Assembly (NCBI GenBank): GCA_029834535.1
Contig: JAQMWT010000134.1
Location: forward strand, 41,030 to 105,029
DNA: 64,000 nt
Source of the DNA: Chrysophaeum taylorii
Taxonomy: Eukaryota; Sar; Pelagophyceae; Pelagomonadales; Pelagomonadaceae
Direction: 5' to 3'
Shown here: positions 25,912-61,656 of the stretch, piece by piece
Layout of the letters: every line of letters begins with the position of its first letter
How positions within the stretch are numbered: position 1 is the first letter of the stretch
Notes under the pieces: model-generated
What the model was told of the DNA's origin: nothing
The model's input: the letters and a program-made list of their open reading frames with translations, nothing else
Database searches by the model: none
Position numbers and translations under genes: made by a program

Positions 25912-26247
25912 TGTGGCGGCAACTCCCGCCTCCTAAAGCTTACCCCTCTTCTAGGGCCCCCCCTTATCAGGGGCACCCTACTCCGTCACGATGATGTCAG
26001 TTTTCTTTATGACATCATCTTCCTTTTCCGCGACGTGTGCCACCCTGATTTCTGTATTTCGATAATATCTTAATCATAAAGCAACAGCCGATCCTCAAGT
26101 CGTGAGGACCAGGCACGGAAGTTGTTTGTGGTTGTGTGGCGGGAGAACGGCCATCCTCGTCGAGTGACTCCATCAAGGGCACGGACGCGAGCGGCGAGCC
26201 AGGATTCGAAGGCACGCCAGGTAGGCCTAAATTCTCCTTACGCCACA
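25912..26247 (+). repeat. 5' LTR of element 1
   Basis: TG…CA termini. It contains a perfect 10-bp inverted repeat, GATGATGTCA and TGACATCATC separated by 10 bp (25990-26019), with CRE-like TGATGTCA cores, and an AATATCTTAATCATAAAGC region that may hold the core promoter or polyadenylation signal. Confidence 0.93.
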
Positions 26248-26709
26248 GGTGGTGGAGGGATATGAGATTCGAGCGACCATATCGGTCGCAGCGAACGAGT
26301 GCATCTTGCATTCTCTACACGGTCCGGACAAGCCGTGCGCGCCCTGATCAAGCGCGCCGACAAGGAATTCCAGAAGGACCACTGCCGTGGGGAAGTTCCC
26401 CGGCCGGATACGTTAGTCGTCGGAGGTGACGACGCGCGATTCGGTTCTAGCCGACGCGCAACCCGGGTACCGCTACCGCAGGCGAGCGGAGTGAGATCGC
26501 AACTCACTGAGGCATTGATTGCCGGGCAGAGACGAATTCTGCCGCCCACCGGACTGATAAATCGGTCGGTGGAAGACGCACGCGACGACGATATTACGCG
26601 TGTCGTGGACGAGTAGAAGTCCCAGAGTCGAAGGAGCACGAGAACGACGACGACTCGACCATTTTGGACCCGCTCTGATCTCGGCCGACTAGAACGAACA
26701 AGAGCCGAT
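26248..26709 (+). other. Untranslated leader of element 1
   Basis: 462 bp between the LTR and the Gag ATG. It opens with G then TGGTGGAGGG (probable primer-binding site, complementary to a CCA-ending tRNA 3' end). The same leader occurs upstream of Gag in element 3 (55194-55654, minus strand), supporting its role as retroelement leader. Confidence 0.7.
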
Positions 26710-28240
26710 ATGGAAGACAATGATGCTGCCGACGAGCAGACACGATACGACGAACCGCCACGCCGTCAGGATGAGACGAGCGAGAGGAATGACGATGATG
26801 ATGATGATGATGATGATGATGAGCACGACACTGAAGTTGACAACGAGGAAGAAGAACTAGACTACAACACCGGCGAACCGACGGAGAGACCGTCGGGAGG
26901 ACGACCGACAGCCCCGTCAACGCGTGCACGACCCCCGGACGCAACGAGAATGAACGAGTTCTACGAGGCTCATTTGCGGGCGTTACGTGAAGAAAACGAA
27001 CGTTCGCAGGAAAGACTTTTGCAACAAATAGCGGAAGAAAACGATCGAAAGGAGCGGCTACAACGGAAGGAGGCCGAAGAATTAAGAGAGCAAGTGCGGA
27101 GGGCCAACGCTCGAGCAGACGACCTCCAGGATCAAGTAAATTCGCTAACCCGAGAAAGGGACGAGCTACGTACGCCGAGTCGATCGAGGCGAGCGAGCAG
27201 CCCGGGGTCCCGAGCTGAGGAAGAGCCGCCAACTACACGATCACGCGCGAAAGCTAGGAAGCCGCGCTATGAAGACGACGATGACGAAGAAAAAGAGGAG
27301 ACGCGTGGCGACGGAAGGATCGACACCCAAGAGTTCTTGATGGGCTTCACGGATCGGTTCGCCAGCGCGTTAGCTAAACACGATCGCAACAAGGAGCGGC
27401 GATCGACCTCCGGATTAAAGACCGAAACTTTTAAACTGGTTCTTGATGGACGCGATCAGGACCAGTTCGATTTAGATGCGGGCGCAGTGATGAGTACGTT
27501 AGCCGAAGACCATTTTAGCATGGAGAAACTGCGGTACCTGCTGCCCGCGAGTTTGCGCGACACAGTCGCACCAATTTTTCTAGGACACTTGAAGAAGTAC
27601 GAAGACCTGTGTAAAGATCTCAATCACCCAGCGTCTTTTTGTTTACGTCGGGAGATCGACGATGAGGAGTACTGTTCAGTGGTACGACGATCACGACGAC
27701 TGAACGAGAAGTCTGCCTCTACTGCCTCAAGATTTTGAAATATTTCCGAGAGAGTTGCCCACTGCCGGTGACGGCAGAGGAATCGCTACGAAAATTGCAA
27801 TGCACGACCCAAGCGACCGTTCCGAAACGCTCTGGGGAACGCCACGTGCATACGTATTGCATCAAATTTCAGAAAGAGGCCATGGCGTACTGTTCTGTGG
27901 CCAACCGAGATCTCAACGATGTGGAGATCATCTCTTACTTGATACGTGGACTGGAGTCCAGCGAATTGAAATCCCGCGTGCGAACCATGCGCAGCGGGCA
28001 CCCGACGACGTATAAAACGTTTACGTCTACGTTGTCATTGATTACACGGCTCGAGAACGATTTCGCAACCGCAATGGCGGAGAAGAACAGCCGAAATTCA
28101 ACGAATCCGTCGGGCGGGAAGCCGCAGAAGCCACCGTCTGGACGCGGAGGACGGGCGCTCGCCTCGGGGACGAAAGATAAAACGACGAAATATGAAACAC
28201 TGCGTCTCGAAGATAATCCGAAAAAGTGGGAGTCCTGTGG
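26710..28240 (+). pseudogene. Element 1 Gag, N-terminal part (frameshifted)
   Basis: ATG 26710 (MEDNDAADEQ) opens a 342-codon frame: poly-Asp and acidic region, a coiled coil (about 80-150, RALREENERSQERLLQQIAEE), a basic linker, then a capsid-like helical region (FKLVLDGRDQDQFDLDAG, LPASLRDTVAPIF). Relative to element 3 an 8-bp insertion near 27700 shifts the frame. The remainder continues from 27738 in the next frame (HVHTYCIKFQKEAMAYCS, YLIRGLESSELKSRVRTMRSG) to EDNPKKW at about 28230, where homology to Gag on this strand stops. Confidence 0.85.
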
Positions 28241-28289
28241 CGGCTCGTCAAGTAACGTTATCGCGGACACTGGTTCACAAGGTGTAGCT

Positions 28290-29200
28290 TCTTCATCTTC
28301 CGAATCTCAATCGCCTTCCCAGTATCGTGGAGCTTCGAGGTCATCGCTCGAATCTTCGAGTTCATCGCTCGACATCTCTTCATGAATCTGTGCCAAAGAA
28401 CGACGATCGGTCAGCACTTCGTTGGGTGGCTCGTCCATCGGCGGGCGAGCAAGATCTTCGAATGCGGCCGCGGCAAGGGCGTCGGCTGCATCGTCGGTGC
28501 GGGTGTCCGTGTTCGGGTACACCATCACTCCTAATGGTAACTGTTGACCGCAAGGCGTCGTAAGCGCGAACGATGCAGACGAATGTCCCGAGTCTTCCCG
28601 GTAACGACCATCGTCCGAATTGCGATCGCGAGATCTTCGTCGCCGGCGGCGGCGTGAATGTCTGCTAGAGCTCCGGCTGTCTTTCCATCGGCGCGGGTGC
28701 GAGCTGCTACGGCTCTTGTCACGGCGTCGGGGGCTCCGGCTATGTCGACGGCCCGGTCGTGTCGAAGACGATCGGCCGTGTCCATCTTTCAAGTGCTTCA
28801 CGGAATCCGTAACCGTGGTCAACTGCGTGCCCATATCGTTGAGTCTGCTCTGAATATCGTGAGCGGCGCTCGAACCGAGGGTGGCATTGGAACTGCCGTC
28901 GTCACGCGAATGATTATCTTTCTTGTGTCGGCTTTCCCATCGTCCTCGAGAGATGGGCTTTTTGCCGTCTTCGATGTACTTACACATCGCAACATAATAG
29001 TCGTCGGGCTCGCGGTTGCAAATGACCCGGTTCCCGTGTTCATCTTTGTCGTGGGTCGTTAAGTAAAACCCACACTCCTTGCATGTGCTCTCGAACCACT
29101 TTTTCGGATTATCTTCGGACGACGCACCGTTTGTCTTTGACGAGGAAGCCCTCGACGCTATCGGCTTATCTTTGGACCCTCCAGGGACGACCTTTAGCGA
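28290..29200 (-). pseudogene. Strand-flipped Gag C-terminal block inside element 1
   Basis: The zinc-finger and RS-rich end of Gag lies on the opposite strand to the rest of the element. Read on minus it gives EDNPKKWFES, a C-x2-C-x11-H-x5-C finger (CKECGFYLTTHDKDEHGNRVIC region), Arg/Ser repeats ([15 protein letters not shown]) and an acidic end (SSDDLEAPRYWEGD). Element 3 has all of this collinear with the rest of Gag. EDNPKKW is present on both sides of the break, and a filler of about 50 bp (28231-28285) starts GAGTCCTGTGGCGG, identical to the polypurine/LTR junction. Confidence 0.85.
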
Positions 29201-29204
29201 CCGG

Positions 29205-31150
29205 ACTGGCTGTGAGCCAGACATGGATTTCTGCAGTGATAGCTCGGATGGTCATTCGACGGACGAGACGATGACCATCGCGAGTGAAGCAGACGACGAT
29301 CCTACGATAGAGTTGACGTCGGGGACGACGCCATCTTTTCCTGCGGACCCCCCCGAAACGGTTTCGGTCACGACGGATCGAGCCATGGACACGCCGCCGG
29401 AAGAAAAGGATAGATTTAAGAAGAAGATTAGCAGCGTTCTGAATTGGGACGAAGACGAGCCGACATGGAACCTGCAGGATTGGTGGACGAGAACTCGGAA
29501 CTTCTTGCTAAAGAAGCCACCAGAACAACCGCTCAGCTACGGACTCGAAGCCGCAGCCGACACGGAACCGATCGCCGATGATGGTGATGATCAACCAACG
29601 ACGAATGAATCTACGGATGCGTTCTGGAAAGACGAAATGAATGAGTTATGGGAGAGGTCCTTTGCTTCCGAGAATAGCGAAGATCGGGATCCCCTACCAG
29701 CACTGATTCCCTCCGAGATTGTCTTGGAGGGAGAGCGGAAGCCGCCAGATAAAGAGGCTGCCGCGAGCGTTACGTCGATGACGCCAACAACAGATGATAC
29801 GAGAGCTCAAGCCGCGGTGTCGATGCCCAACCCCGGAGATGAGCGAGTCAGAGCCCGATGTACTCACACTTCGTTGACGCCGCGAGATGGCAAGACGATC
29901 GAAGATGATTTGGTTACCCTCAGTTGTTTAGATACGGGTACTCTTACGTTTATGGCCTGTCACATCTACAGGAATCGTGACGGACCGAAATTCTCGACGA
30001 CCATCGGTGTCGATGGAATGGCGGATGTTTCTTATATTTGCCGAGAAATGGTCAGAAAGTTGGCCAAAGATCAGTTGATTTTCGATGAAGGCGAACTTCC
30101 GATTAAGCGCAAGCTGTACGGATCAGGGTTGAATACGACGACGATCTTTCGTTGGATCGCGATTCGGGTCGCCCTCGCCGACAAAATCGCCGCCCCCATT
30201 GTCGCTAGTGTGGCCGATACGAACTATCTGTTCCTGTGGGGAGGGCGCGATATACGAGTTTTAGGAGCCGACGTGGACTACCCCCACGATCGAATCTGCT
30301 TTTATCGAACCCAAGTCGTCTACGGGCGCAAGAAGATTAAGTTCAAGGATGAACGAATCGATGCACCCATCGTGACCTTTCGATCTATTTACGATCGAGA
30401 CCCGATAACCGTGCCGATTTACAATCGTCAACACGATGCATTTCGGAAGAGTCTCGACCTAGTCAAGACTCGAGTGTGCGCTCGCTTGAGCACGATTAAA
30501 GATCTCCGAAGCCCGCCGCCGGAACGAACGGTGGCCTTGGCTACGCGGGGACATGCTACGACCAAACTCTCCCCAGCTCCGGGGGAAGACGCGCGAGGAG
30601 TAGTGGCTTACGCTGCGCGCACGCTTCAAATCGATCCCGGTCGAACTTACAATCTACCGGTTATTTTATCGAAACCTATGGACATGGGACAGGTTTTCGT
30701 CGCTACGTTTGCTGAAAACGAGCAGCTGGGAGTTGTCGAAGGAATGTGTTCTTCTTGCGAAGAGCACGACCGATCCGCTGCTCGGGTTGCGGTTACTGCC
30801 GCGGAAGAAGTGCCGACGGTCGTCACTCAAGGCGAAGTCCTTGCGATTGGCGATATCGTTAGGTACGAAGATGAGTTGAACGTCTCTACGATCAACGAAC
30901 TTACGAAAGAATGTGAAGAAGGATACGACAAGGGGAACCTTTCTTTCACCGCTTCCGTCGCTAGTCATTTGACGCATTGCGACGCGTCTCCCCCGCCGAT
31001 GTTGCTGAGCACGGCGCAGAAGGACGCTACGACCGCTATGGCGGACAAGTCCTCCCTCAAACGACCCGAAGACGACGACGATTTTGCTCGAAGGTCGGAG
31101 GAAGATGAAACGAAGTGCCGCGAGATCACCGAAGCAGAGATCCGCCGCCG
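29205..31150 (+). CDS. Element 1 acidic linker and retropepsin-like protease region
   Basis: Part of an open frame running to 31874. After an acidic region (DEPTWNLQDWW, FWKDEMNELW) comes a protease-like stretch: LTFMACHIYRNRDGPKFSTTIGVDGMADVSYICREMV, with the strand corresponding to LVDTGAxxSxI reading VDGMADVSYI, and a late WGGRDIRVLGADVDYP matching the retropepsin ILGxDxL region. The expected D-T/S-G triad is D-G-M; a separate LDTGT lies 31 residues earlier. A beta-rich segment (GRTYNLPVILSKPMDMGQVFVAT, QLGVVEGMCSSC) follows, as in many gypsy Pol proteins. Enzymatic activity is uncertain. Confidence 0.6.
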
Positions 31151-32035
31151 ATACGAAAAGGTTCAATGGCTTCCAATCACTTATCGCAAGTTGGTGATGC
31201 TGTTCAGTGGAGCCGGAGGCAGTACTTCAGGTCTCCAACGAGCCAACGAAATGTGTGGGACGTCGTTTCGAGTCGTGCTAGCACTCGATGCGTCGGACAC
31301 CGCCAACCTGATCCACCATAAGAATTTTCCTAACATTCCTGTGGTGCAGCACACACTGTGTGGTCGCTATGTTACAACCTTGCGGTTGATCGGAACTTAT
31401 TTACCCTACGCGGAATGGTCGTCGTCGATGTGTGTCGCGTCGCCACCCTGCGTACACTCCGCTCTGTACAACTTAACTTCCAGAGATGTTTGGAAGGGAG
31501 TCACCGCTACCCACTGGACGATGAAATTATGCAAGATGGCTGGTTTCTTCATGTGGTTGATAGAGCAGGAGGCCTCGATTATTTCTTACGTTGCACGTTT
31601 GCACCCTTACATGTATGTCGTCGATTTTTATGACATAACGCCCAGTTTGATGAGCTGTCGCGTGCGATTGTTGGTTTCCAGCCACCCGCTCCATTTGCGC
31701 GCAGTTCCGAAGACTTGCAAGAATATGCAGCAAGAGTTCGCCGCAGCACTTGGCTACGCCGACGAACGACATTTACTTCAGATGAACAACTTAGGATCAT
31801 CGCGAGCCGCGACAGATGCAGCTTATACCGTTGCGCGTGTCCCGCTTCGTGTAGGACCGCACCGTTCCGATTAGAGATCTTTGAATCTGAAAATGACTTC
31901 GGAGTTGCTGACAATGCCCCTTGATTTTGATTGGGCCGGCTTCTCCAGGACGACCTCGTTCAAACACTTGGCGTCCGTCGTGCCACCAGGCACGATGACT
32001 TTATTAGTACTCGATCTGCACAATTCTGTGACCAA
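31150..32035 (+). CDS. Element 1 cytosine-5 DNA methyltransferase domain (interrupted by TAG)
   Basis: About 290 residues within Pol. The C5-methyltransferase motifs appear in order: I VMLFSGAGGSTSGLQRA (SAM binding); II-like VVLALDASDTANLIHHKNFP; IV MCVASPPCVHSAL with the catalytic Pro-Cys (PCQ in most enzymes, PCV here and in element 2); VI-like FMWLIEQEASI (usual ENV); VIII-like SCRVRLLVSS (usual QxRxR); IX/X LNLKMTSELLTMPLDFDWAG … HLASVVPP, corresponding to the ExxxLxGFPxxW … GNAVPP ends. A TAG at 31872-31874 separates motif VIII from IX/X; element 2 has no stop there. Transposon-borne C5 methyltransferases are known from a few algal lineages; a role in self-methylation is inference. Confidence 0.85.
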
Positions 32036-34143
32036 GGATTTTCACCTGAGCGACGAAGCTTTGCCGTCGGCGTTGAGTCCTGCAGACCGACCGTTTGATT
32101 ATTATTTGCAAGTTGATGAAACCACCCTTCGTCACGTACAAGTTCCGCTGTTAAACACGCGCACACGTGTCGTAAGATGGGTATCGACTGATGATCTCCA
32201 AGATCGCACCAAATGGAAACCTCCAGAGGTACCGTTGATTCCGCCTGCAACAGATGAGTCGGGGACGTCTCATGCTTCTTCTGCTGCCCCCCCCCGACAA
32301 CCAAATTTGGACGTTCCGCCAGATCCTGAGCAAAATCGGGAACCGAAGATTAAGAGCGAGCCGAGTGTTCGTGTCAAAGGCGAGAGGATCAACAAAAGCC
32401 ACCCGGAAGTGAAACTAAAATATGAGAAAAAGTTCGATGTGCCATGGAAAGATACGCCGCGCGATGCTGAGGGTGCACCGCTGCCGCAAACTCCCGAGCA
32501 TGTCAAGGACAACGAAGCAATGAAAGTTCAAATTCCTACAAAGGAAGAAGTTGACAAGGTTGTTCAGGAGTTAGGAATTCCTGACAATCCGCACTTAGAT
32601 GACGAGGCGAAACTGATGCTCCGTCACTGTGTGCAATATTCTTGGGCCTTTTTCGACCCGATTATGAGACCTGTGGACTCGCCCCCTGTGTCTCTACGAT
32701 TCAAAGACGCGAATCCGCGACCGATTAAGATGACGGCCTACCGATTGACGCCTGCGAAGCTCGATTGTCTCCGCAAGCAGATCAGCGAGTGGTGCCAGGA
32801 TGGAGTCATTCGTCCGGCCAACTCACCCTGGGGCTTTCCTGTGTTGATGCTTCCGAAGAAAGGAGCTGAGATTGGAACGTCCAACGCGTTCCGTGCTGCA
32901 GTTGACTTACGTCAGCTCAACGATCAATTGGTCAATGACAGTTGGCCGAACATTCGACAAGATGATGCTTTAGCTTTTCTCGCCATGAGACGATGGCGGA
33001 CATGCATCGATATTAGATGGGGATACCACAACATTCGTTTGGATCCGGCAGCGCAGGACGCTGTCACGATGGTTAGCCCACTTGGCGCTCATAGTTTCTT
33101 GCGATTACCTCTAGGTGTGAAGACGGCCGGAGCTCTTTTCTGCAAACAAATGGCGAGCGACCTTTCGAAATGGATGTATCAAGACTTGGTTGCGTTTGTT
33201 GACGATATTATGATGAGATCCGAGGATCTTCATCGACATTTACAAGTTTTGATCGAAGTGATGTGTCATTTGGCACAGAGAGGGTACAGCGGTCGAACCG
33301 CGAAGTTCCACCTTCTCAAGGATGATATAGAATTTCTGGGACACATTTCTACCCCAGAAGGTTTGAAGCCGAATCCGAAGACGCTGGAAGCACTGCAGAA
33401 GATGCCGATTCCAGGTACTTTACCGAATACTTCCCCGAAGACCCAGATACGCTCTTTCATCGGCATGAGTAATTATTGCCGGCGATATGTGAAGGGCTAC
33501 TCGAAGATCGTGGAACCGCTGAGACGATTATGCCTCGAAGGTGTAAAGTTCAAGTGGGCGCCCGAGTGTCAGAAAGCTTGGGATACGATTTTTGAAGCTC
33601 TGGTTGATTCCAGAGGAGTCTACCACCCCGATTATGATCTGCCTTTTCAGATCCGATCCGACGCTTCCAAGGATGGACTTGGAGCATATCTCTTCCAGAT
33701 TGTCGAAGTCAAGGACGATGCCGGAAGAGTGACTCGAGAAGAACGAGTGATTGAATATTGGAGCCGAGCTGTGCCGAAGGAGATGCGCAATTACGAGCCC
33801 CGTCGGCTAGAGCTGCTGGCAGTTATACTTTCTCTAGAGCACTTTCGAGCCTACATCGAAGGGCACCGTACTGTTTTGGAGACCGATCACCGAAATTTGA
33901 CGTTTTTACGTAAGGCGACGCACTCGTCTGGGCAGCTTGCTCGGTGGGCGATGCGCCTCGCCAATTTTGACCTTGAACTTGGTTATAAGCCGGGAAAGTC
34001 ACCGCGAATGAGTATCCCTGACTGTCTCTCCCGCAATCCGATAGATCATGTCATCGAGACTGACGAGTTTGGAGAACCTTTTAACCACGCTTATCTGGTG
34101 TTCCAAGAGCTTCCCCGGCCTGTTGATGACCGAGGAATTCCCG
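31881..34143 (+). CDS. Element 1 reverse transcriptase and RNase H
   Basis: An uninterrupted frame of about 755 codons. After the methyltransferase end and a Pro/Lys-rich linker, RT begins near FKDANPRPIKMTAYRLTP, with WGFPVLMLPKK, CIDIRWGYHNIRLD, SFLRLPLGVKTAGALFCKQM and the polymerase box FVDDIMM (YVDD class), then FLGHISTPEGLKPN. RNase H follows with QIRSDASKDGLGAYL, RRLELLAVILSLEHFR and VLETDHRNLTFL, and ends SIPDCLSRNP. This is Ty3/gypsy order and sequence. At 34144 the TTAG-tailed insertion begins; the remaining reading (TLIADRMVAMEDGAS) belongs to the insertion. Confidence 0.95.
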
Positions 34144-34509
34144 TTACCCTGATCGCCGACCGCATGGTTGCGATGGAGGACGGTGCCTCATGAATCCTGA
34201 GCCTTGCGAGGGCATCCGCCCTCCCGGCGTAGGTTGGCACCTATTCGCCTCTCGGGCGGGCCGGTTGGCAGCCGGAACGTTCGCAGTGGGACGGGGAATG
34301 GCCGGGGGGCGCAGACGGAAGGTTATCGACGAGTTGGTTGTCAGTCACATCGCGGTCTCCTCGTCGCATGGCGACAAGCTTGATGATCACTCTCCGCCGA
34401 CCCACCTTTCGGCGCCCCTCGTCTACAGGCCCGTGATTCCGGACTGGCTCCTGTCGGTCCGGCCTGGCTCCCATGCTCGGGAGAGGTCTGAAGTTAGTTA
34501 GTTAGTTAG
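34144..34509 (+). mobile_element. TTAG-tailed SINE-like insertion, copy 1 (in gypsy pol)
   Basis: 366 bp starting TTACCCTGATCGCC and ending in four TTAG repeats, flanked by direct repeats AATTCCCG (34136-34143 and 34510-34517; 9 bp if the adjacent G is counted). Element 3 lacks it at the same point, so it is an insertion. A 104-codon frame (MNPEPCEGIRPPGVGW … RARERSEVS-like end) spans most of it and is also open in copy 2. Candidate A/B-box-like strings (TGGTTGCGATGG, GGTTGGCACC) are weak. Tail-repeat variation plus a target duplication suggests target-primed retroposition. Confidence 0.8.
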
Positions 34510-36435
34510 AATTCCCGCTTCCGGCTGCCACTTCATAATGTCGTTTGTTATGACCGAACTGCCGGAAGACGAAGACGAAGACCCTGAAAAGGATCTGATG
34601 AAACTGGCTACGTCTCACGCTACGAGACAACGTCGGAAGAACCGTGCGCGCGATGAGCACACCGCACACAGATCTTCAAGGACGCAGCCGCTTACAAAGA
34701 TTATACCGATAAGATACCCGATAATATGACGCTCGCTGAGATCGCACGTGAGCAATCTGATGCTACTTGCAAGGATATTCGCTACCGAATGGCCCAAGGT
34801 CGGACGCCGCGACGTTCCCGAGCGAACGAACGATTCGAAGTCGTTAAAGACGTTCTTTACCGCATTTCTGCTGATTTGCACCCGAGGATTGTTGCACCTG
34901 CTACGTTGCGCAAGCGCATTATTCGACTCTACCATGACACTCCGGTTAACGGTGGTCATATGGGACGTCACAGTACCGTCCAGGCTATCCAAGAACGATT
35001 TTGGTAGCCCCACATGTCGAACGAAGTTGGAGTCTTCATTGCTGAATGTTTAGTTTGCCAGAAAGCTCGTACGCCGGAGCCGAAACGAGCTGGACTCTTG
35101 CAGCAGCCCGTCTACGATGGTGATGGTGCTGTTCTTTGCATGGATTTATTTGGGCCGTTGCCCAGCGCTGATCCCGAGACGTATCTTCTAGTATTTTTTG
35201 ATCCGTTCTCGCACTTCTTAATTTTGGATGTTTTGAACGATAAGACTGCCGAGTCTGTCCTCGAGTCTTTTGTCATTAACATCCTCCTCAAGGGCTACTT
35301 GCCCCAGATGCTCCGTACCGACAACGGTGAAGAGTTCGTGAACAAGTTGATGCGCGAGTTTTGCCATCTCTTCAATACACGATACCAAACTACGATTCCT
35401 TATCAAGCCCAGTCGAACCCGGCTGAGCGCGTTAACCGATTTATCAAGGCCTTCCTCCGTGCTTGCCTTCAGGGCCGGAACATCACGGATTGGCCCGACT
35501 TTGCTCATTATATTGCGTTTTGTTATAACCGCAAGTTTATTCCAGGCACGCAGATTTCTCCCTTTATGCTGCGCCTGAACCGTCAGCCGATGTTACCTAC
35601 TGATTACGCGCTTATGGACGTTGATACGCGACTATTGCCGAAGACTCGCTCTGATGCTGTCGCCGAAACTCGTGAACGATTGAAGTATTATACGAAGATC
35701 GTCCGCGAGGCTCGTGATAAAGCTTTGAAGAAACAACGATTGGCCTATAATGCTGATCATGTCGATGTTGAATACAAGGAAGGATCGCACGTTTTGCTCT
35801 ACATTCCTTTCCTTCAGAACAAACTTCGACCGGAATGGCGAGGACCGTTTATTATCAAGGAACGCCTTTCCCCGGTCACCTATAGGATTGAGTCTCTCGA
35901 CTCTCCGCCCGAAGAAGGACGTGTTCATGTTAGTCAGATCACGCCTGTGATGGTACCTCCGATCGTCGATCAAACTATCCGCAAAACCGAAGAAACCTTC
36001 CGTGATGATTACCAGCACGGTAAGTTTGTTGTTTTCCGGATTCCTGACCGGAAGCGCTCTGATTGGCGCAAGAAGATTTGTGTTGCCGAAGTTTACGAGC
36101 CTTACGATTACCAAAATGATCGTGTTGCTCTACATTTCTACTCCGATTTGGGTCCGAACGATGATGTCGCTTATTTCAAGCCGACCTCTCACCTTTCGCA
36201 CCGCAAGCTCAAGCCCGAGTTCAAGGACGTTGAAGGTCGAAGTTTCACCGACAAGTCCAGAATTTCCTCCAACACAACTCCTTGTGTCACGGATTTCGCT
36301 CCGCACGAGATTGATGTGTTGATCCCCAAGTTTACTTTACACAGTGGCCGAGTTCCTGAACCGGTCATCACCCGCGTTTACCAGAAGATTCGTTCACGAG
36401 ATGCTCGTAAGGCGAAGCCGCGCTCCTTGCGCTAG
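34510..36435 (+). pseudogene. Element 1 integrase (one in-frame TAG)
   Basis: Resumes after the insertion (MTELPEDEDEDPEKD). The HHCC zinc-binding domain reads HDTPVNGGHMGRHSTVQAIQERFW, TAG, PHMSNEVGVFIAECLVCQK; element 3 has TGG at that codon, so this is W to stop. The DDE core follows: MDLFGPLPSADPETYLLVF, LRTDNGEEFVNKL, ANPAERVNRF-type glutamate region. A C-terminal DNA-binding fold (VEYKEGSHVLLYIPFLQNKL, WRGPFIIKERL) leads to an extra module (GKFVVFRIPDRKRSDWRKK, VAEVYEPYDYQNDRVALHFYS) resembling Tudor/BAH-like reader barrels, where chromoviruses place a chromodomain. Stop at 36435. Confidence 0.9.
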
Positions 36436-36475
36436 CACCTCGCTGGGGCAGCTCGAATTCTTACCAGGGGAGTCC

Positions 36476-36809
36476 TGTGGCGGCAACTCCCGCCTCCTAA
36501 GGCTTACCCCTCTTCTAGGGCCCCCCCTTATCAGGGGCACCCTACTCCGTCACGATGATGTCAGTTTTCTTTATGACATCATCATCCTTTTCCGTGACGT
36601 GTGTCACCCTGATTTCTGTTTCGATAATATCTTAATCATAAAGCAACAGCCGATCCTCAAGTCGTGAGGACCAGGCACGGAAGTTGTTTGTGGTTGTGTG
36701 GCGGGAGAACGGCCATCCTCGTCCAGTGACTCCATCAAGGGCACGGACGCGAGCGGCGAGCCAGGATTCGAAGGCACGCCAGGTAGGCCTAAATTCCCCT
36801 TACGCCACA
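36476..36809 (+). repeat. 3' LTR of element 1
   Basis: Near-identical to 25912-26247, with about six substitutions and one 2-bp deletion by eye. It is preceded by CCAGGGGAGTCC (polypurine tract) and followed by CTACT, matching the left flank CCACT at four of five bases. Confidence 0.93.
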
Positions 36810-39840: not shown

Positions 39841-41546
39841 ATGGTCACGACAGATCAGATCACAGATGCGCCGATGGAAGAGAAGCGGGCAGAAATGCCC
39901 AAATTGACGGACGAGCGATTGCAAGAAACGTCCGATGAAACGAAGGAGGAAGTGAATGTACCTCCGAGTGAAAAGTGTCAGAACTCGCTACCGGAGATCG
40001 ATGAGGGCAGTCGAGGCGCCGATGAAGCTGAGAAGGGCACGAATGAGAGATACGCGAGCTGGACGACGTCGGACAGCGTTCGCGGGAACGAGACGACGTG
40101 GAGCTTTCAGCACCTGTGGACGAAGGCTCAGAGCTTCCTGCTGAAGAAACCGCCCGAGCAAAGAGGGAGTCCATCGCTGAGTTGCAGCGAAGATGCCGCG
40201 AAGAACCGAGACCAGATGGGAATCGGAAGTGGGGATCGACGACCCGAGGACGAGTCGATGGAAGTGTCGTGGGAAGACGAAATGAACGCCATATGGGAGA
40301 ACCCTGAGGCAACAGCGAAACTTGGATATAAGGAAGCCGCCGAAGAGCCGAGCCAACCCGAGTTCGCGACGGAAGAAGAGCGAGAGCCACCAGACAAAGA
40401 TGCAGCTACGGGCGCCGCTCGAGATTCAGAGGCGACACGCGCGATGCACAGATGGCAGCTGTGACGATGCAGATGCCGGGCGACGCGGATCCGAAGGGGC
40501 GATGCCATCATACCGCTCTGTAGCCGCGCGATGGGAAAACGATCGAGGACGACCTCGTCACCATCGGTTGTCTGGACACTGGCACGCTGACGTTCATGGT
40601 TGGACATATTTACAAAAGACGAGACGGGCCGAAGTTCGCAACGACCATTGGTGTTGATGGAATGGCTGATGTCTCCTATATTTGCCGCGAGATGGTCGCC
40701 AAGCTGGCGAAGGACAAGAGAATCTTCGACCAAGGCGAACTCCCAGTCGAGCGCACCTTGTACGGGTCGGGGTTGAATAAGACGACCATCTACAAATGGG
40801 TAGCGTTACGAGTTGCTCTCGCGGACGACGCTGCGGTCCCGGTGGTTGCCATCGTGACTGATATGAATCATCAATTTTTATTGGGAGCGCGTGATATTCG
40901 AGTGTTGGGGGCCGTGGTGGATTACCCGCACAATCGCATCGCGTTCCACCGCACGCAAGTCGCATATGGGCGCAAGCGGCTGAAGGTGCAGGATCGAAGA
41001 GTCGATTCCCCTATCCTGACGTTCAGATCAACTTATGAGCGCAACCCCGTGGTAGTTCCGATTTACGAGCACCAGCACCCCGCGATGAAGCAGAGCATGA
41101 ACACGGTCGAGGATCGCATTTACGCTCGCTTGTGCACAATTAGAGACCTCCCGCGTCCACCGCCGGAACGAACGGTGGCTTCGACGACTTAGGGAGTCTC
41201 GACCGTTACGCCTTCTCAAAGTTCGAGCAGCGCTGCCCGTGAAGTGGTTGCCTACGCTGCGCGCACGATGAAGGTCGTGCCTGGACGCACTTACAGCGCC
41301 CCAGTCACCCTTTCAGAGCCCTTGGAAGACGGGCAAGTTTTCGTTGCTACATCCCCTAGATACGAGCAACTCGGGGTAATCGATGGAATGTGCTCTTCCT
41401 GTGAGGACCACGACAAGTCCGCCGCTCGCATGGCGATTTCATCCACCCAAGATGTGCCGACCGTGATTACTCAAGGCGAAGTGCTCGCTCTCAGTGATAT
41501 TATTCGTTACGAGGACGAGTTGAATGTCCTACGGTTGAAGAATTAA
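39841..41546 (+). pseudogene. Element 2 acidic linker and protease-like region
   Basis: Open pieces 39841-40464, 40596-41192 and 41244-41546 match element 1. The protease-like part keeps TIGVDGMADVSYICREMV and FLLGARDIRVLGAVVDYP, so the unusual D-G-M triad is shared by two diverged copies. A TAG near 41190 and a shift near 41540 break the frame. Confidence 0.7.
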
Positions 41547-41611: not shown

Positions 41612-42720
41612 ATGACGCAATGCGACGCAGCCCCCTCACCGATGCTTTTGAGCTCGGTACAAAATACGGCCCACTCCGCCGAAAAGGACGTGACCTCCCG
41701 TCAAAGATCGCTTGGCAACGACGATTTCGACCGACGATCCGACGACGAGGAGAAGAAGTGCCGAGAGGCCACAGAAGGCGAGATTCGTCGAAGATTGGAA
41801 AAGTCCAATGGCTGCCGATCACGTATCGCAAAGTTGTGATGCTATTCAGCGGCGCCGGAGGCACTACTTTAGGGCTGCAACGAGCGAACGAGTTGTGCGG
41901 GACGTCGTTTCGTGTCGTTCTTGCTCTCGATTCCTCAGCGGCAGCCAACAAGATCCATCAAAAGAATTTTCAGAAGGTGCCGGTGGTTCAGCACGCGCTC
42001 TGCGGACGCTACACAACGACCCTTCGATTGATAGAGGCCTATTTGCCCGAAGAGGAATGGTCATCGTCGACGTGCATCGCGTCCCCGCCCTGCGTTCATT
42101 CAGCACTCTGCAATTTGACTTCCAGAGATGTCGGCAAAGGCGTGTCGGCCACTCACTGGACGATGAAGCTGTGCAAGATGGCTGGCTTCATGATGTGGCT
42201 GATTGAACATAGCGCCTCGATTGTTTCTTACATTGCGCGTTTACACCCTTATGTGTACGTCGTCAATTTTCACGACATTACGCCCACTTTGATGAGCTAT
42301 AGCGTGCGGATGTTGGTCTCCAGTTACCCGCTGCACCTGCAAGAAGCTCAAAAGACTTGTGCAAATATGCAACAAAAACTTGCTGCAGCTTTGGGTTACG
42401 AAGATGAACGAAACCTTCACCAGCTGAACAATTTAGGCTCGTCCCCAGAAGCAACGGATACGGCTTACACCGATACGCGAGTTCCTCTTCGACTCGGACC
42501 GCACCGTTCGGACACTCAGCCTTTGACTCTCAAAATGACCTCAGAGTTTCTCGCGATGCCGCTAGATCCTGATTGGGCTGGCTTGTCTAAGACGGATTCG
42601 CTCAAGCACTTGGCGTCCGTCGTGCCCCCCGACACTCTTGCGATTTTAGCACTCGATCTGCACAACTCCGTGACCCGAGGTTTCCCCGCCAATGTGGTGA
42701 TGTCCTGCCAACCGCGTTGA
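41612..42720 (+). pseudogene. Element 2 cytosine-5 methyltransferase domain
   Basis: A 1-bp deletion near 41803 (AAAAGTCCAATGG versus AAAAGGTTCAATGG in element 1) shifts the entry. From there the domain is uninterrupted to 42720. Motifs: VMLFSGAGGTTLGLQRA (I), VVLALDSSAAANKIHQKNF (II-like), CIASPPCVHSALCNL (IV), MMWLIEHSASI (VI-like), SYSVRMLVSS (VIII-like), and LTLKMTSEFLAMPLDPDWAG … HLASVVPP (IX/X) contiguous with motif VIII. It shows that the stop in element 1 is secondary. Confidence 0.85.
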
Positions 42721-48820: not shown

Positions 48821-49000
48821 AACTTGAGGCTGGCAGTTGCTTTTTCATGATCAAGGTACTCCTGATTTCTCTGTCAGGGTGATGTCAGGGGGATGACATC
48901 ACTTGACATCATATAGGAAAATAGGAAAAAGCGTCCCGTTGAACGGGTACAAAACCTTGAGGAGCGGGGTAGGCCTTAGAGGGCAGGAGTTGCCGCCACA
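48821..49000 (-). repeat. 3' LTR (type B) of element 3
   Basis: From 49000 downward it reads TGTGGCGGCAACTCCTGCC, GTACCCGTTCAACGGGACGC, then ATGATGTCAAGTGATGTCAT. This matches the LTR fragment of element 2 rather than the 5' LTR of element 3. The lower boundary is not resolved. Confidence 0.65.
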
Positions 49001-49259
49001 GGACTCCCATGGTAAGAATACGAGCCGCCCTCAGCGAGAGGCCCGACGAGAATCACGAGCCTTGGCCGAACGAGCGTCTCGTGAACGAATTTTCTTGTAA
49101 ACGCGCTCGATGATTGGTTGGGGAACGCGTCCACTACGCAAAGTGAACTTGGGAAGCAACACATCGGTCTCGTGCGGGGCGAAGCCGGTGACACAGGGAG
49201 TGGTACTGCTAATGATCTTAGTCTTGTCGGTGAAACTGCGACCGTCGACGTCATTCTAC

Positions 49260-51395
49260 TCCAGCTTGAGCTTGCGAGTAGAGAGATGTGATGTGGGCTT
49301 GTAGTAAGAAACCTTGTCTTGCGGACCAAGATCAGAGTAGAAATGTAGAGCTACTCGATCGTTCGCGTAATCACAAGGTTCATAAACTTCAGCGACGTAA
49401 ATCTTCTTGCGCCAATCGGACCGCTTACGATCGGGGATCCGAAAGACAACGAACTTACCATGCTTAAAATCCTCCCGGAAGGTTTCCTTGGACTTAGGCA
49501 CGGCTTGATCGACCACTGGAGAGACCATCACAGGGGTCATCTGACTGACATGAACGCAACGACGTTCGGGCGGAGAGACGAGAGACTCAATCCATAGAAG
49601 ACCGGAGACAGGCGCTCCACGATAATAAACGGGCCGCGCCATTCTGGTCGGAGCTTATTCTGAAGAAAAGGAATGTAGAGGAAAACATGCGATCCCTCTT
49701 CGTACTCAAAATCAACATGGTCCGCGTTGTAAGCGAGCCTTTGTTTCTGGAGAGCATTCTTGCGAGCTTCATTCACCGTAGCGGTGTAGAACTTCAATTT
49801 CTCGCGGGTCTCTGACACAACATCAGAGCGAGTTTTCGGCAAGCGTCGGGCGTCCAGATCCATGATCGTGTAATCAGTTGGCAGCAGCGGCTGTCAATTG
49901 AGGCGAAGCATGAACGGGGAAATCTGCGTACCCGGAATGAACTTGCGATTGTAGCAGAACGCGATGTACTCTGCAAAGTCAGGCCAGTCCGTGATGTTCC
50001 GGTCATGAAGACACGCACGGAGAGCCTTGATAAAGTGGTTGACCCGTTCAGCTGGATTGGCCTGAGCATGATACGGAATCGTAGCGCTATACCGAAGGTT
50101 GAAGAGCTGACAAAACAGTCTTCCATAAACTTGTCGGCGAATTCTTTACCCTCATCGGTACGAATCACCAGAGGCAGGTACCCCTTGAGCAATATATTCG
50201 CGACGAAAGACTCGAGGATCGCCTCAGCAGTCTTGTTGTGCAGCACGTCGAGAATCAGGAAATGAGAAAATGGATCGAAAAAAACGAGGAGATACGTCTC
50301 GGGACCGGCACTGGGCAAAGATCAAAACAGATCCATGTAGAGGACGGCGCAGTCGCCGTCGTATACAGGTTGCTGAAGAAGACCAGCTCTCTTGGGCTCT
50401 GGCTTGCGAGACTTCTTACACACCAAACAACCAGCAATGTAGGTGCCCACTTCATTCCACATGTGGGGCCACCAAAAACGTTCAAGTATCGATTGCACGG
50501 TACTGACACGACCCATGTGACCACCATTGAGAGGCGTATCATGGTACAATCGGATGACGCGCTTCCGTAAGGTACGGGGAGCCACTATCATCGGATGCAA
50601 ATCAGGTCCGGCACGGTAATGGACTCCCTTCACAACTTGATAACGAATGTTAGCTTCGTTCCGGCGAATAGCAAGACCCTGAGCCATGCGATATCGAATG
50701 TCTTCGCAAGTAGCGTCAGTGATTTGTTCTTTGGCTATCTCTTCCAAAGTCAAATTATCCGGGAACTTGTCGATGTACTCTTGGTAATCATCAGCGTCTC
50801 GGAAAATGCTAGGTTGGGATCGCAGACGACTCTTCTGACGTTGTCTCGTGGCATGAGACGTGGCCAACTGCATCGGGTCGTCGCGATCATCTTCTTCTTT
50901 CTCCTCAGGCAACTCAGTCGTGATAAACGTCAAAATGACATGACATACAGCTAGTGGTACTCCTTTGTCATCGATGGGCCGAGGAAGTTCCTGGCACGCC
51001 AAATAGGCGTGATTCAAGGGTTCACCAAACTCGTCCGTCTCGATAACGTGATCGATAGGATTACGAGAGAGGCAGTCAGGGATACTCATTCCCGGTGACT
51101 TCCCTGGTTTGTAGCCCAGTTCAGGATCGAAGTTGGCAAGTCGCACTGCCCATCGAGCCCATTGCCCAGATGAATGCATCGCCTTCCGCAGAAACGTCAA
51201 ATTGCGGTGATCCGTCTCGAGGACCGTTTTGTGCCCTTCGATGTAAGAGCGAAAATGTTCGAGAGAAAGAATAACTGCCAGTAGCTCTAGCCGGCGGGGC
51301 TCATAGTTCCGTATCTCTTTCAGCACAGCTCGGCTCCAATACTCGATTACTCGTTCCTCTCGTGTCACCTTTCCGGTGTCGTCGGTGGCTTCCAC
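49260..51395 (-). pseudogene. Element 3 RNase H and integrase region
   Basis: RNase H (RRLELLAVILSLEHFR, VLETDHRNLTFL) runs directly into the integrase without the TTAG-tailed insertion of element 1. HHCC zinc domain (HDTPLNGGHMGR … FWWPHMWNEVG … CLVCKK) and DDE parts (DLF then stop, LLVFFDPFSHF, IRTDEGKEFADK) follow with frameshifts near 50320 and 50120. The C-terminal extra module (KFVVFRIPDRKRSDWRKKI … VALHFYS) is retained. Confidence 0.85.
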
Positions 51396-52783
51396 GAGTT
51401 GGAAAAGATACGCGCCCAGGCCGTCCTAGGAAGCACCAGAGCGGATCTGAAAGGGAAGATTGTAGTTCGGGTGATAGACTCCGCGAGAGTCCACCTAGGC
51501 TTCGACGATCGTATCCCACGCCCTTTTGGCACTCGAGCGCCCACTTGAACGGAACACCTTCGAGACACACTCGCCCCAACGGCTCCACAATCTTCGAATA
51601 ATTCTTCACATATCGGCGGCAATAGTTGCTCATGCCGATGAAGGATCGAACCTGGGTCTTCGGAGACGTGTTCGGCAGCGTTCCGGGAATCGGCATATGC
51701 TGCAGCGCTTCCAGCGTCTTCGGATTCGGCTTCAAGCCTTCCGGTATGTCCCAAAAACTCGATATCATCTTTGAGGAGGTGGAACTTCGAGGTTCGTCCA
51801 CTATATCCTCTTTGTGCTAAGTGGCACAATACTTCAATCAAGACTTGTAAGTGACGGTGGAGGTCGTCTGATACCATCATAATGTCGTCGACAAATGCGA
51901 CCGAGTCCTTATACATCCAGTTCGATAAATCGCAGGCCATCTGTTTGCAGAAGAGAGCTCCTGCTGTTTTCACTCACAGAGGCAAGCGCAAGAAACTGTG
52001 TGCTCCGAGTGGGCTAACCATCGTGACAGCGTCCTGAGCGGCAGTGTCCAAACGCAGGTTGTGGTATCCCCATCGAATATCAGTGCACGTCCGCCAACGG
52101 CGCATGGCAATGAAAGCCAGCGCATCATCTTGACGGATATTCGGCCAACTATCATTGACCAATTGATCGTTGAGCTGACGTAAGTCAACTGCAGCACAAA
52201 GAGCGTTCGACGTCCCGATCTCTGCTCCCTTCTTGGGCAGCATCAGCGCAGGAAATCCCCACGGAGAATTCGCCGGTCGGATGACTCCATCGCGACACCA
52301 CTCGGTGATCTGCTTCCTGAGACAATCGAGCTTTGCTGGCGTCAACCGATAAGGCGTCATCTTGATCGGTCGTGGGTTTGCGTCTTTAAATCGTAGAGAA
52401 ACCGGTGGCGAGTCCACTGGTCTCATAATCAGGTCAAAAAAGGCCCACGCGTATTATACGCAGTGGCGCAACATCATCTTCGCATCTTCATCTAAATGCG
52501 GATTGTCGGGTATTTCCAGTTCTTGAACGACTTTCTCGACTTCTTCCTTCGTCGGGATTTCGACTTTCATCGCTTCGTTATCCTTGACGTGCTCCGGAGT
52601 CTGCGGCAGTGGTGCTCCGTCCGCATCGCGCGGCGCATCCTTCCACTGCACATCGAACTTTTCTTCGTAATTGAACCTCACTTCGGGATGGCTCTTATTG
52701 ATCTTCTCACCTTTGACGCGCACACTTGGTTCGCTCCTCACTTTCGGCTCCCGATCAGGTTCAGGATCCGGCGGAACGTCCAA
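51365..52783 (-). pseudogene. Element 3 reverse transcriptase region
   Basis: Begins in the linker (DVPPDPEPDREPK), with RT motifs as in element 1 (WGFPALMLPKK, SFLRLPL, FVDDIMM). Breaks: CAA to TAA in the VQY codon run near 52455, a TGA at the LPLGV position near 51972, and a short deletion near 51745 after DDIEFLGH. All are absent from element 1, so they occurred after the copies separated. Confidence 0.85.
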
Positions 52784-52874
52784 TTTTTGCCCTCGCTATG
52801 TGGGCACAACTTAAGGAAATCTGCGCTTTGACTGCGCATCCAAACAAAACCAGAGCAATAATGTTATTGTCTTA

Positions 52875-53882
52875 TTACTCGTCTTCCGAGTCTGAATCGC
52901 CTTCCCAGTATCGTGGAGCTTCGAGGTCATCGCTCGACTCTTCGAGTTCATCGCTCGACATCTCCTCATAAATCTGTGCCAAAGACCGACGATCGGTCAG
53001 CACTTCGTTGGGTGGCTCGTCCGTCGGCGGGCGAGCACGATCGTCGAATGCGGCCGCGGCAAGGGCATCGGCTGCGTCGTCGGTGCGGGTGTCCGTGTTC
53101 GGGTACACCATCACTCCTAATGGTAGCTGTTGACCGCAAGGGGTCGTGAACGCGAACGTTGCAGACGAATGTCCCGAGTCTTCTCGGTCGTTACGACCAT
53201 CGTCCGAATTACGCTCGCGAGATCTTCGTCGCCGGCGTCGGCGTGAATGTCTGCTAGAGCTCCGGCTTTCTTTCCGTCGGCGCGGGCGCGAGCTGCTACG
53301 GCTCTTGTCGCGGCGTCGGGGGGTCGGGCTATCGCGACGGCCCGGTCGTGTCGAAGACGATCGGCCGTGTCCATCTTTCAAGTGCGCCACGGAATCCATA
53401 ACCGTGGTCAGCTGCGTGCCCATGTCGTTGAGTCTGCTCTGAATATCGTGAGCAGCGCTCGAACCGAGGGTGGCATTGGAACTGCCGTCGTCACGCGACT
53501 GATTATCTTTCTTCTGTCGGCTCTCCCATCGTCCCCGAGAGATAGGCTTCTTATCGTTTTCGATGTTCTTACACATCGCCACATAGTAGTCATCGGGCTC
53601 GCGGTTGCAAATGACGCGGCTCCCGTGTTCATCCTTTTCGTTGGTCGTGAGGAAGAATCCACAATGTTTGTATATGCTCTCGAACCACTTTTTCGGATTA
53701 TCTTCTAAACGCAATGACTCATATTTCGTCGTCTTATCTTTCGGTCCCGAGGCAAGCGCTCGTTCTCCGCGTCCAGACGGTGGCTTCTGCGGCTTTCCGC
53801 CCGACGGGTTCGGTGAATTTCGGCTGTTCCGCTCCGCCATTGCGGTCGCGAAATCGTTCTCGAGCCGCGTAATCAATGACAA
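52875..53882 (-). pseudogene. Element 3 Gag, C-terminal part with zinc finger and RS region
   Basis: Continues the same Gag after an in-frame TAA. It has LITRLENDFATAMAE, then EDNPKKWFES, a finger C-x2-C-x11-H-x5-C (CGFFLTTNEKDEHGSRVIC), an SR/RS repeat region ([15 protein letters not shown]) and an acidic end (DLEAPRYWEGDSDSEDE), stop at 52875. This collinear arrangement is the reference for the inverted block in element 1. Confidence 0.85.
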
Positions 53883-53900
53883 CGTCGACGTAAACGTATT

Positions 53901-55193
53901 TTACGTCGTCGGGTGCCCGCTGCGCATGGTTCGCACGCGGGATTTCAATTCGCTGGACTCCAGTCCACGTATCAAATAAGAGATGATCTCCACGTCGTCG
54001 AGATCTCGTTTGGCCACAGAGCAGTACGCCATGGCCTCGCTCTGGAATTTGGTGCAATACGTATGCACGTGGCGTCCCCCCGTTCGTTTCGGAACGGTCG
54101 ATTGGGTCGTGCCTTGAAGTTTTCGTAGTAATTCCTCTGCCGTCATCGGCAACGGGCAACTCGCTCGGAAGTATCTCAAAATCTTGAGGCAGTACCCCTT
54201 GTTCAGTCGTCGCAGTCGTCGTACCACTAAACCGTACTCATCATCGTCGATATCCCGACGTAAAGAAAAAGACGCTGGATGATCGAGATCCTTACACACG
54301 TCTTCGTACTTCTTCAAATGCTCTCGGAAAATCGGTGCGACTGTGTCGCGCAGGCTCACGGGCAGCAGGTACCGCAGCTTTTCCATGCTGAAATGGTCTT
54401 CGGCTAACGTACTCATCACCGCGCCCGCATCTAAATCGAACTGGTCCTGATCGCGTCCATCAAGAACCAATTTAAACGTTTCGGTCTTTAATCCGGAGGC
54501 CGGTCGTCGATCTTTGCTGCGATCGTGTTTGGCTAACGCGCTGGCGAACCGGTCTGTGAAGTCCATGAGGAACTTCTGGTTGTCGATTCTTCCGTCGTCA
54601 TGCGCCTCCTCCTTTTCTTCGTAATCGTCGTCTTCGTAGCGCGGCTTCCTAGCTTTCGCGCGTGATCGTGTAGTTGGCGGCTCTTCCTCGGGTCGGGACC
54701 CCGGGCGGCTCGCTCGCCTCGATCGACTCGGCGTACGCAACTCGCCCCTTTCTCGGCTCAATGAATTTACTTGATCTTGGGGGTCATCTGCTCGAGCGTT
54801 GGCCTTAAGCACTTGCTCTCGTAGTTCTTCCGCCTCCTTCCGCTGTAGCCGCTCCTTTCGATTGCTTTCTTCCGCTATTTGTTGTAAAAGTCGTTCCTGC
54901 GAGCGTTCGTTCTCTTCACGTAACGCACGTAGATGGGCCTCGTAGAATTCATTCATTCTCGTTATATCCGGGGTTCGTGCACGCGTTGACGGGGCTGTCG
55001 GTCGTCCTTCCGGCGGTCTTTCCGCCGGTTCGCCGTTGTTGTAGTCTAGCTCTTCTTCCGCGTTGTCAACTTCGGTAGCGTGCTCTTCTTCATCGTTATC
55101 ATCATCTTCATCATTCCACTCGCTCGTCTCATCCTGACGGCTTGGCGGTTCGTCGTATCGTATCTGCTCGTCCGCAGCATCATCGTCTTCCAT
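53901..55193 (-). pseudogene. Element 3 Gag, N-terminal part
   Basis: 430 codons from ATG 55193 (MEDDDAADEQ): acidic region, coiled coil (RALREENERSQERLLQQIAEE), capsid-like helices and YLIRGLESSELKSRVRTMRSGHPTT, then TAA where element 1 has TAT. Past that single stop the frame continues into 53882-52875. It is the best-preserved Gag in the window and shows that element 1's 8-bp insertion and flipped block are secondary. Confidence 0.85.
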
Positions 55194-55654
55194 ATCGGCT
55201 CTGGCTCCTTCTAATCGGCCGAGATCAGAGCGGGCCCCAAATGGTTGAGTCGTCGTCGTTCTCGTGCTCCTTCGACTCTGGGACTTCTACTCGTCCACGA
55301 CACGCGTAATATCGTCGTCGCGTGCATCTTCCACCGACCGATCTATCAGTCCGGTGGGCGTCAACCTTCGTCTCTGCCCGGCAATCAAAGCCTCAGTGAG
55401 TTGCGATCTCACTCCGCTCGCCTGCGGCAGCGGTACCCGGGTTGCGCGTCGGCTAGAACCGAATCGCGCGTCGTCACCTCCGACGACTAGCGTATCCGGC
55501 CGGGGAACTTTCCCACGGCAGTGGTCCTTCTGGAACTATACGTCGGCGCGCTTGATCAGGGCGCGCACGGCTTGTCCGGACCGTGTAGAGAATGCAAGAT
55601 GCACTCGTCCGCTGCGACCGATATGGTCGCTCGAATCTCAGATCCTCCACCGCC

Positions 55655-55994
55655 TGTGGCGTTAGGGGAATTTAGGCCTACCTGGCGCGCCTTCGAATCC
55701 TGGCTCGCCGCTCGCGTCCGTGCCCTTGGTGGAGTCACTGGACGAGGATGACCGTTCTCTCGCCACACAACCACAAACAACTTCCGTGCCTGGTCCTCAC
55801 AACTCGAGGATCGCCTGTTGCTTTATGATTAAGATATTATCGAAACACAGAAATCAGGGTGACACATGTCACGGAAAAGGAAGATGATGTCATAAAGAAA
55901 ACTGACATCATCATGGCGGAGTAGGGTGCCCCTAATAAGGGGGGGGGGGGGCTAGAAGAGGGGTAAGCCTTAAGAGGCGGGAGTTGCCGCCACA
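55655..55994 (-). repeat. 5' LTR (type A) of element 3
   Basis: Reverse complement closely matches the element 1 LTRs, with TGTGGCGGCAACTCCCGCC start and CGCCACA end, the GATGATGTCA/TGACATCA inverted repeat, and a G-run expanded to 13 at about 55938-55950. Confidence 0.9.
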
Positions 55995-60170: not shown

Positions 60171-60410
60171 ATCAAGGCGACAGTAATAATAATTGTGAGG
60201 AAGCTATGACACTTACCCCTGCACCACGTATCGCCACGTATCCAGTATCCCTACGTCTTTCTCTTATCGCTAGTCTAACGCCTCATTCCAGTCGTAACAA
60301 GGTACCAAGCGTTCGTTTCGATCGAACGACTGCTTGACTTCACGGATGACGGCGACTCCTCCTCGGCTTCAGTTCTTCATTGCTACGTGTTCGATTCGTT
60401 ATCGTTTATC

Positions 60411-61296: not shown

Positions 61297-61656
61297 TTAC
61301 CCTGATCGCCGACTGCGGTTGCGATGGAGGACGGTGCCTCATGAATACTGAGCCTTGCGAGGGCATCCGCCCTCCCGGCGTAGGTTGGCACCTATTCGCC
61401 TCCCGGGCGGGCCGGTTGGCAGCCGGAACGTTCGCAGTGGGACGGGGTATGGCCGGGGGGCGAAGACGGAAGGTTGTCGACGAGTTGGTTGTCAGTCACA
61501 TCGCGGTCTCCTCGTCGCATGGCGACAAGCTTGATGGTCACTCTCCGCCGACCGACCTTTCGGCGCTCCTCGTCTACAGGCCCGTGATTCCGGACTGGCT
61601 CCTGTCGGTCCGGCCTGGCTCCCGTGCTCGGGAGAGGTCTGAAGTTAGTTAGTTAG
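61297..61656 (+). mobile_element. TTAG-tailed SINE-like insertion, copy 2 (in copia gag-pol)
   Basis: 360 bp, about 96 percent identical by eye to 34144-34509, with the same start TTACCCTGATCGCC and three TTAG repeats at the end (four in copy 1). The MNTEPCEGIRPPGVGW … frame is open here too. Flanks GAACGC / GAGCGC are a possible imperfect target duplication. It splits a Gag frame between CHER and QRYLL. Confidence 0.8.

Follow-up and report, generated by a model that had tools for sequence, protein, structure and literature searches.

Sequence comparisons give good support to the capture of a cytosine-5 DNA methyltransferase (C5-MTase, or MTase below) by a Ty3/gypsy retrotransposon of Chrysophaeum taylorii, in which the domain is a part of the Pol frame upstream of the reverse transcriptase (RT). 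The domain was noticed in the window, i.e., in the whole stretch of 64,000 nucleotides analyzed here, which sits on contig C134 of the host genome (70.8 Mb in 697 contigs). The case is built on what is observed in this genome: the gene fusion, the conservation of motifs, the selection acting on the domain, the copy number, and the content of host genes.

Structure of the element

The window element (25912-36809) has the following parts.

25912..26247, plus strand: 5' LTR, 336 bp, TG..CA ends (LTR comparison)
26710..27735, plus strand: N-terminal part of gag, open frame, named by position and without a Pfam gag match
28232..29115, minus strand: gag segment, inverted in this copy (comparison with other copies)
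29985..30320, plus strand: retropepsin-like segment (LDTG, then IGVDGMADVSYI ... GGRDIRVLGADVDY), putative protease, recognized by pattern and without a Pfam match
31185..31990, plus strand: C5-methyltransferase domain, motifs I-X (motifs, profile comparisons)
31872..31874, plus strand: TAG stop splitting the MTase domain (frame reading)
32571..34143, plus strand: RT and RNase H (RVT_1, RT_RNaseH; Pfam matches above cut-off)
34144..34506, plus strand: insert of about 365 bp between RNase H and integrase (comparison with other copies)
35014..36432, plus strand: integrase core and C-terminal domain (Pfam match above cut-off)
36476..36809, plus strand: 3' LTR, 334 bp (LTR comparison)

The two LTRs are 98% identical (six mismatches and one 2-bp indel), with the termini TGTGGCG...CGCCACA. 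The flanks of the element, CCACT and CTACT, agree in four of five bases and are a possible target-site duplication. The internal order is gag, retropepsin-like stretch, MTase, RT, RNase H, integrase; the succession of RT, RNase H, and integrase assigns the element to the Ty3/gypsy type. A preliminary description of this DNA, made by reading the sequence, had spoken of a Ty3/gypsy element with LTRs, and both the LTRs and the domain order confirm it. The N-terminal part of gag and its counterpart in a third family element in the window are 82.9% alike. The end of the integrase frame past the SH3-like part (35940-36432) is conserved in other copies and has no Pfam name.

The same description had placed the MTase between protease and RT. 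The position of a C5-MTase in the Pol frame upstream of the RT stands, on the strength of the shared frame in a relative and of the profile comparisons, both given below; the protease is a putative one, as a Pfam search gave no protease match for the retropepsin-like segment. This segment reads DGM instead of DTG or DSG in five of the nine copies searched, namely the pattern-matched ones, and the DGM pattern had no match in loci L042-L045. LDTG lies about 29 residues upstream of DGM in three of these five copies. A second retropepsin-like segment with DGM is found in the window at 40455-41282.

The window copy is a decayed member of its family: it has the TAG stop, the inverted gag segment, and the insert, and for these reasons it is itself unlikely to methylate DNA. 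The segment 28232-29115 is inverted relative to L039, L041, and the third window element over nearly its whole length, and relative to L040 and L044 in parts. The inversion occurs in an element with LTRs that are 98% identical. The insert is missing at that site in L039 and L040 and occurs elsewhere in L039 and L044, and this repeat is a small mobile element of unassigned kind. Its translation, read by eye, also terminates the frame at 60387-61652 of the window.

Two relatives share the window with this copy.

41767..42714, plus strand: second MTase copy, frame open up to and including motif X, 77% identity with the first copy
48960..55994, minus strand: third family element, protease-MTase stretch absent between gag and RT

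No RT was found adjoining the second MTase copy.

Family size, fusion, and selection

With the window domain as a query, at least 150 loci were found in the genome (the best 150 of 933 candidates were scored), and 125 of these 150 are stop-free in the matched stretch by our own count. The second window copy gave at least 136 matches (the best 136 of 983 candidates), 19 of them new when the two sets were compared by hand. Together these make at least 169 MTase loci, so that a genome-wide search, as suggested in the preliminary description, does find further copies. One more, frameshifted locus (L061) was met on top of them. Several loci with 97-98% identical RT had been considered as MTase-free sisters of the family; this candidate was dropped, because L061, the one that was fetched, has the MTase with its frame shifted near motif I.

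The MTase and the RT are fused. In L039 the MTase and RVT_1 share a single frame of 1868 aa, and at 14 loci the frame lengths of the MTase and the RT, compared by hand, are equal.

The gypsy MTases form two subfamilies that differ in about 17% of residues. Between the subfamilies, dN/dS is 0.067-0.079 for the MTase, 0.056-0.081 for the integrase, 0.032-0.054 for RT/RNase H, and 0.174-0.234 for the protease region (four pairs per region, with dS of 1.3-2.0 and hence near saturation). Judged by these ratios, the MTase domain is under purifying selection and evolves like an enzyme needed by the element.

Conserved motifs

The motifs of the window copy are located as follows.

31203-31220, plus strand: motif I, FSGAGG
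31440-31451, plus strand: motif IV, SPPC
31563-31565, plus strand: Glu of motif VI (E-Q)
31659-31667, plus strand: motif VIII, RVR
31893-31934, plus strand: motif IX-like MTSELLTMPLDFDW, behind the TAG, in register
31974-31988, plus strand: motif X-like SVVPP, behind the TAG, in register

The sites and their order are as first noted, with the correction that motifs IX and X, while in register, lie behind the stop at 31872-31874.

Residues were counted over 39 rows chosen by the motif I pattern, which represent 35 distinct loci (L009 is the first copy of the window; L039, L040, and L041 duplicate L011, L013, and L026). The F and the first and third G of motif I, the D of motif II, the P and C, the E, and the last R are invariant in 39/39 rows. 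The Pro-Cys of motif IV is thus present throughout, and the next residue is Val in all rows. In motif VI the Glu is likewise universal, and the Asn of ENV is replaced by Gln in 37 rows, His in one, and Arg in one. The first Arg of the RxR in motif VIII is found in 38 rows and the second in 39. In motif X, GN reads AS and VPP is retained, and hhalign aligns both IX and X. The Val after the Cys had been suggested as a special mark of this MTase; this is weakened by the DNMT5-like protein of the host, which has Val at the same place (GTSCVDYS).

The spacing from the Cys to the Glu is 38 residues in the family and 37-41 in six reference C5-MTases. From the Glu to the last Arg of motif VIII there are 34 residues, compared to 43-48 in the references, and from VIII to X about 103, compared to 126-192. 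The short VI-VIII and VIII-X distances imply a short target-recognition part.

The replacement of the Gln after the Cys, the Asn of ENV, and the GN of motif X would fit a loss of catalysis, with the domain retained in the polyprotein as a scaffold that binds nucleic acid or SAM. Decayed relatives of this kind do exist, since a Paenibacillus protein (WP_013385896) keeps motif I without Pro-Cys. Nevertheless, we consider a loss of catalysis unlikely: the Cys, the Pro, the Glu, and the SAM-site residues are invariant over the 35 loci despite the difference of about 17% between the subfamilies, and the Val after the Cys recurs in the DNMT5-like host protein.

Profile comparisons

The preliminary description had made the identification depend on a significant match to PF00145, whose curated cut-off is 22 bits. 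Read strictly, the window copy has no such match (E 0.21 in its long frame; E 0.033 and 14 bits, below the cut-off, for the cut-out domain), but its relatives overturn this result. The cut-out domains of L011 (26.7 bits) and L042 (27.1 bits) pass and that of the second window copy (20.7 bits) does not; the whole frames of L039, L043, and L044 reach 20.9, 19.2, and 20.6 bits (E 2.7e-4 to 9.1e-4), also below 22. In total, the cut-off is passed by two of seven scores, both of them from the four cut-out domains. With a threshold of E 0.1, PF00145 is matched by all 14 members of the alignment (the best at 1e-6). Their other matches link them to the dcm-type MTases of bacteria and phages: all 14 match two PHROG DNA-methyltransferase profiles (116/363, best 4e-8) and NCBIfam dcm (TIGR00675, best 6e-4), the latter at 19.5 bits, far below its cut-off of 100.65. 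The domain differs from dcm-type MTases in its shorter VIII-X distance and in the altered ENV and GN. Beyond these, the libraries give one further match, of a single member to a single Pfam model (E 0.095). With individual copies, the HMM matches are confined to the motif I end.

Profile-profile comparison extends the likeness along the domain. Aligned by hhalign with six C5-MTases, five of which were picked for their resemblance to the family, the family matched at E 1.8e-12 over columns 21-124; with 14 members and gap trimming, the score was 88.4 (E 5e-12, columns 21-291; the alignment is shallow, Neff 1.2). Decoys stayed far below this value (a maximum of 20.1 in 100 column shuffles and 13.8 for the reversed profile). 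A decoy-free comparison with seven references, in which the Paenibacillus protein gave way to a phage MTase and the DNMT5-like protein of the host, gave E 7e-9 over columns 22-290. Taken singly, the MTase of phage KP15 scored 24.4, a marginal result compared to 17.8 in 15 shuffles, and the DNMT5-like host protein did not match (13.0 against 19.9 for shuffled profiles).

A tblastn search of 72,556 plasmid records gave ten matches at E up to 1 (best 5e-3); seven of the ten records are annotated at the match, all as DNA cytosine methyltransferases. The protein WP_013385896.1 of Paenibacillus polymyxa pSC2 (L058) carries the annotation of a DNA cytosine MTase; in the alignment it retains motif I and has no motif IV Pro-Cys, and it is perhaps not a working methylase.

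A search of 5.8 billion proteins gave no homologue of the gypsy MTase (queries: the 250-aa domain and a region of a 1868-aa frame), and neither did searches of viral contigs, of contigs of prokaryotic genomes, and, by tblastn, of phages. Such searches reach chiefly close relatives, and so these results show divergence and not uniqueness.

The domain might instead be a Dnmt2-type RNA methyltransferase that acts on the RNA of the element or on tRNA, possibly the primer tRNA, and not on cDNA. In a PDB profile search the sole MTases matched are two DNMT2 sequences, at E 0.21 and 0.22 in the motif I-II part only; these matches are not significant, and two unrelated ones follow at 0.5 and 1.6. The host Dnmt2, a reference not chosen by likeness, scores 39.2 in hhalign (columns 23-178), where 100 shuffles give no more than 25.8, and the DNA of the family has no CpG footprint (see below). 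Five bacterial DNA MTases score higher (44-62), though they were picked as best matches. Weighing this, we find an RNA substrate of the Dnmt2 kind rather improbable.

Search for a methylation footprint, and proposed mechanism

The observed to expected ratio (o/e) of CpG is 1.35 inside the window element and 1.20 in its MTase stretch. For three flanking gene stretches it is 1.26-1.34, and a copia-like stretch at 60-64 kb has 1.12. Three gypsy loci have ratios of 1.19-1.30, and four copia loci have 1.00-1.04. C/T differences per site among copies are 0.036 for CpG, 0.027 for CpA, 0.030 for CpC, and 0.052 for CpT (336 of the 435 pairs of 30 copies, those of less than 5% divergence). Sought by these two measures, a footprint of CpG deamination was not detected: CpG is not depleted, and its differences lie within the range of the other contexts. 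Methylation in another context, an RNA substrate, good repair, and lost catalysis all fit this result.

We propose that a C5-MTase was captured long ago, has been kept as a working part of Pol between the retropepsin-like segment and the RT, and methylates the cDNA of its own element; on balance, we lean towards this proposal. The MTase would be produced and packaged together with the RT and integrase, and would methylate cytosines of the element's own cDNA. New copies would thereby enter the genome pre-marked. The maintenance machinery of the host, with the DNMT5-like gene and an SRA-domain gene as candidates, could then keep the mark, and the marked insert would resemble resident chromatin and not foreign DNA. 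It is the catalysis of the MTase, its substrate, timing, and benefit that we infer here.

A different role, in which the domain would modify foreign DNA and so serve as a defence of the host or the element against DNA viruses, has been proposed for retrotransposon methylases generally, as far as the available part of PMC6338049 goes; for the present family it seems to us very unlikely. That a Pol spacer resembles the motifs by chance, as the sub-cut-off PF00145 scores of the window copy alone might suggest, is hardly credible in view of the decoy-controlled hhalign scores, the family-wide profile matches, and the purifying selection.

A second MTase family and the host methylation genes

A scan of the genome with PF00145 (the best 123 of 474 candidates were scored) lists 57 matches: a Dnmt2 (contig C634), a DNMT5-like gene (contig C621), and 55 others above the cut-off, all of which fall at loci of one other MTase family. 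No gypsy MTase locus is among the matches listed. A direct search for the second family lists at least 155 matches (the best 150 of 643 candidates were scored).

Nine loci of the second family were fetched at length.

L046-L054: second MTase family, on contigs C314, C96, C582, C328, C523, C4, C120, C104, and C315

In the three loci scanned (L046, L047, and L053), RVT_2 lies downstream of the MTase, which makes these loci Ty1/copia. The copia MTase carries LPCQ and ENV and matches C5-MTases in hhalign with a score of 50.0 (E 6e-6), and no homologue of it was found in the protein search. Its hhalign comparison with the gypsy MTase is not significant (17.9); therefore we treat the two as separate captures.

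The host Dnmt2 is named by PDB matches (E 5e-39). The DNMT5-like protein matches PDB entry 7r76 (E 9e-130), labelled Rad8, which we take to be the Dnmt5 of Cryptococcus. Elsewhere, DNMT5 is a maintenance-type enzyme. The host genome also has one SRA-domain match and 84 light-harvesting matches, the latter indicating a photosynthetic alga. The scan reads exons separately and scores only the best candidates, and so host MTases may be missed.

Since the host MTases among the matches listed are otherwise only Dnmt2 and the DNMT5-like gene, retrotransposons could conceivably supply the de novo cytosine MTases of the host, the separately captured gypsy and copia enzymes writing the marks and the host DNMT5 keeping them. 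We regard this as doubtful. If true, half of the methylation system of the host, namely its writing part, would belong to parasites.

Relation to known systems

That retrotransposons may carry DNMTs was already known, as the preliminary description had stated: gypsy-, DIRS-, and LINE-borne cases are described in the available parts of PMC5890265, to which the following comparisons refer. KnitGypsy-Dnmt3 of Klebsormidium nitens (de Mendoza et al. 2018, PMC5890265) resembles the window family in that a gypsy element of the LTR kind, present in several copies, carries a C5-MTase within its Pol frame, and in purifying selection (Ka/Ks < 0.2 there, dN/dS 0.067-0.079 here). The KnitGypsy MTase is a Dnmt3, whereas the PDB matches of the window family up to E 10 include no Dnmt3; the KnitGypsy repeats are DIRS-like according to the legend, whereas the window element has simple flanking LTRs. 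SymbioLINE-Dnmt and SymbioDIRS-Dnmt3 of Symbiodinium (PMC5890265) are likewise retrotransposon MTases in hundreds of copies with the domain under selection, but their backbones are LINE and DIRS and not Ty3/gypsy, and SymbioLINE copies are CG-depleted, unlike the window family. SymbioDIRS-Dnmt3 is reported there to methylate CG in yeast, and SymbioLINE-Dnmt gave no DNA methylation in the yeast test.

C5-MTases of LTR elements are also reported in the available part of PMC12344493, where DNMT3 occurs in Copia and DIRS elements, in parallel to the copia family described here; those MTases are DNMT3 of streptophytes and dinoflagellates, set against our copia family by description only. Methylases in Ty3/Gypsy and DIRS elements are mentioned in the part of PMC6338049 at hand, and the corresponding part of PMC9998398, a survey of algal DNMTs, describes no such element. 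We found no report of the window gypsy MTase family in the literature on retrotransposon-borne MTases.

The capture is likely separate from the published ones, judging by the PDB profile matches (weak ones to DNMT2 and none to Dnmt3 up to E 10), where the published gypsy case is a Dnmt3. New features are a divergent predicted MTase with a short putative target-recognition part, in another host; a second, unlike family of predicted MTases borne by copia elements of this genome, which puts two apparent captures side by side; and a host that otherwise has only Dnmt2 and the DNMT5-like gene among the PF00145 matches listed. The gypsy family is an example of a captured MTase that a profile scan can overlook, with zero loci among the PF00145 matches listed. 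This genome pairs two LTR lineages bearing unlike C5-MTases, at high copy number, with a small genome size and few detected host MTases. It thereby bears on an open puzzle, that of a transposon with an enzyme of the very kind by which transposons are usually silenced.
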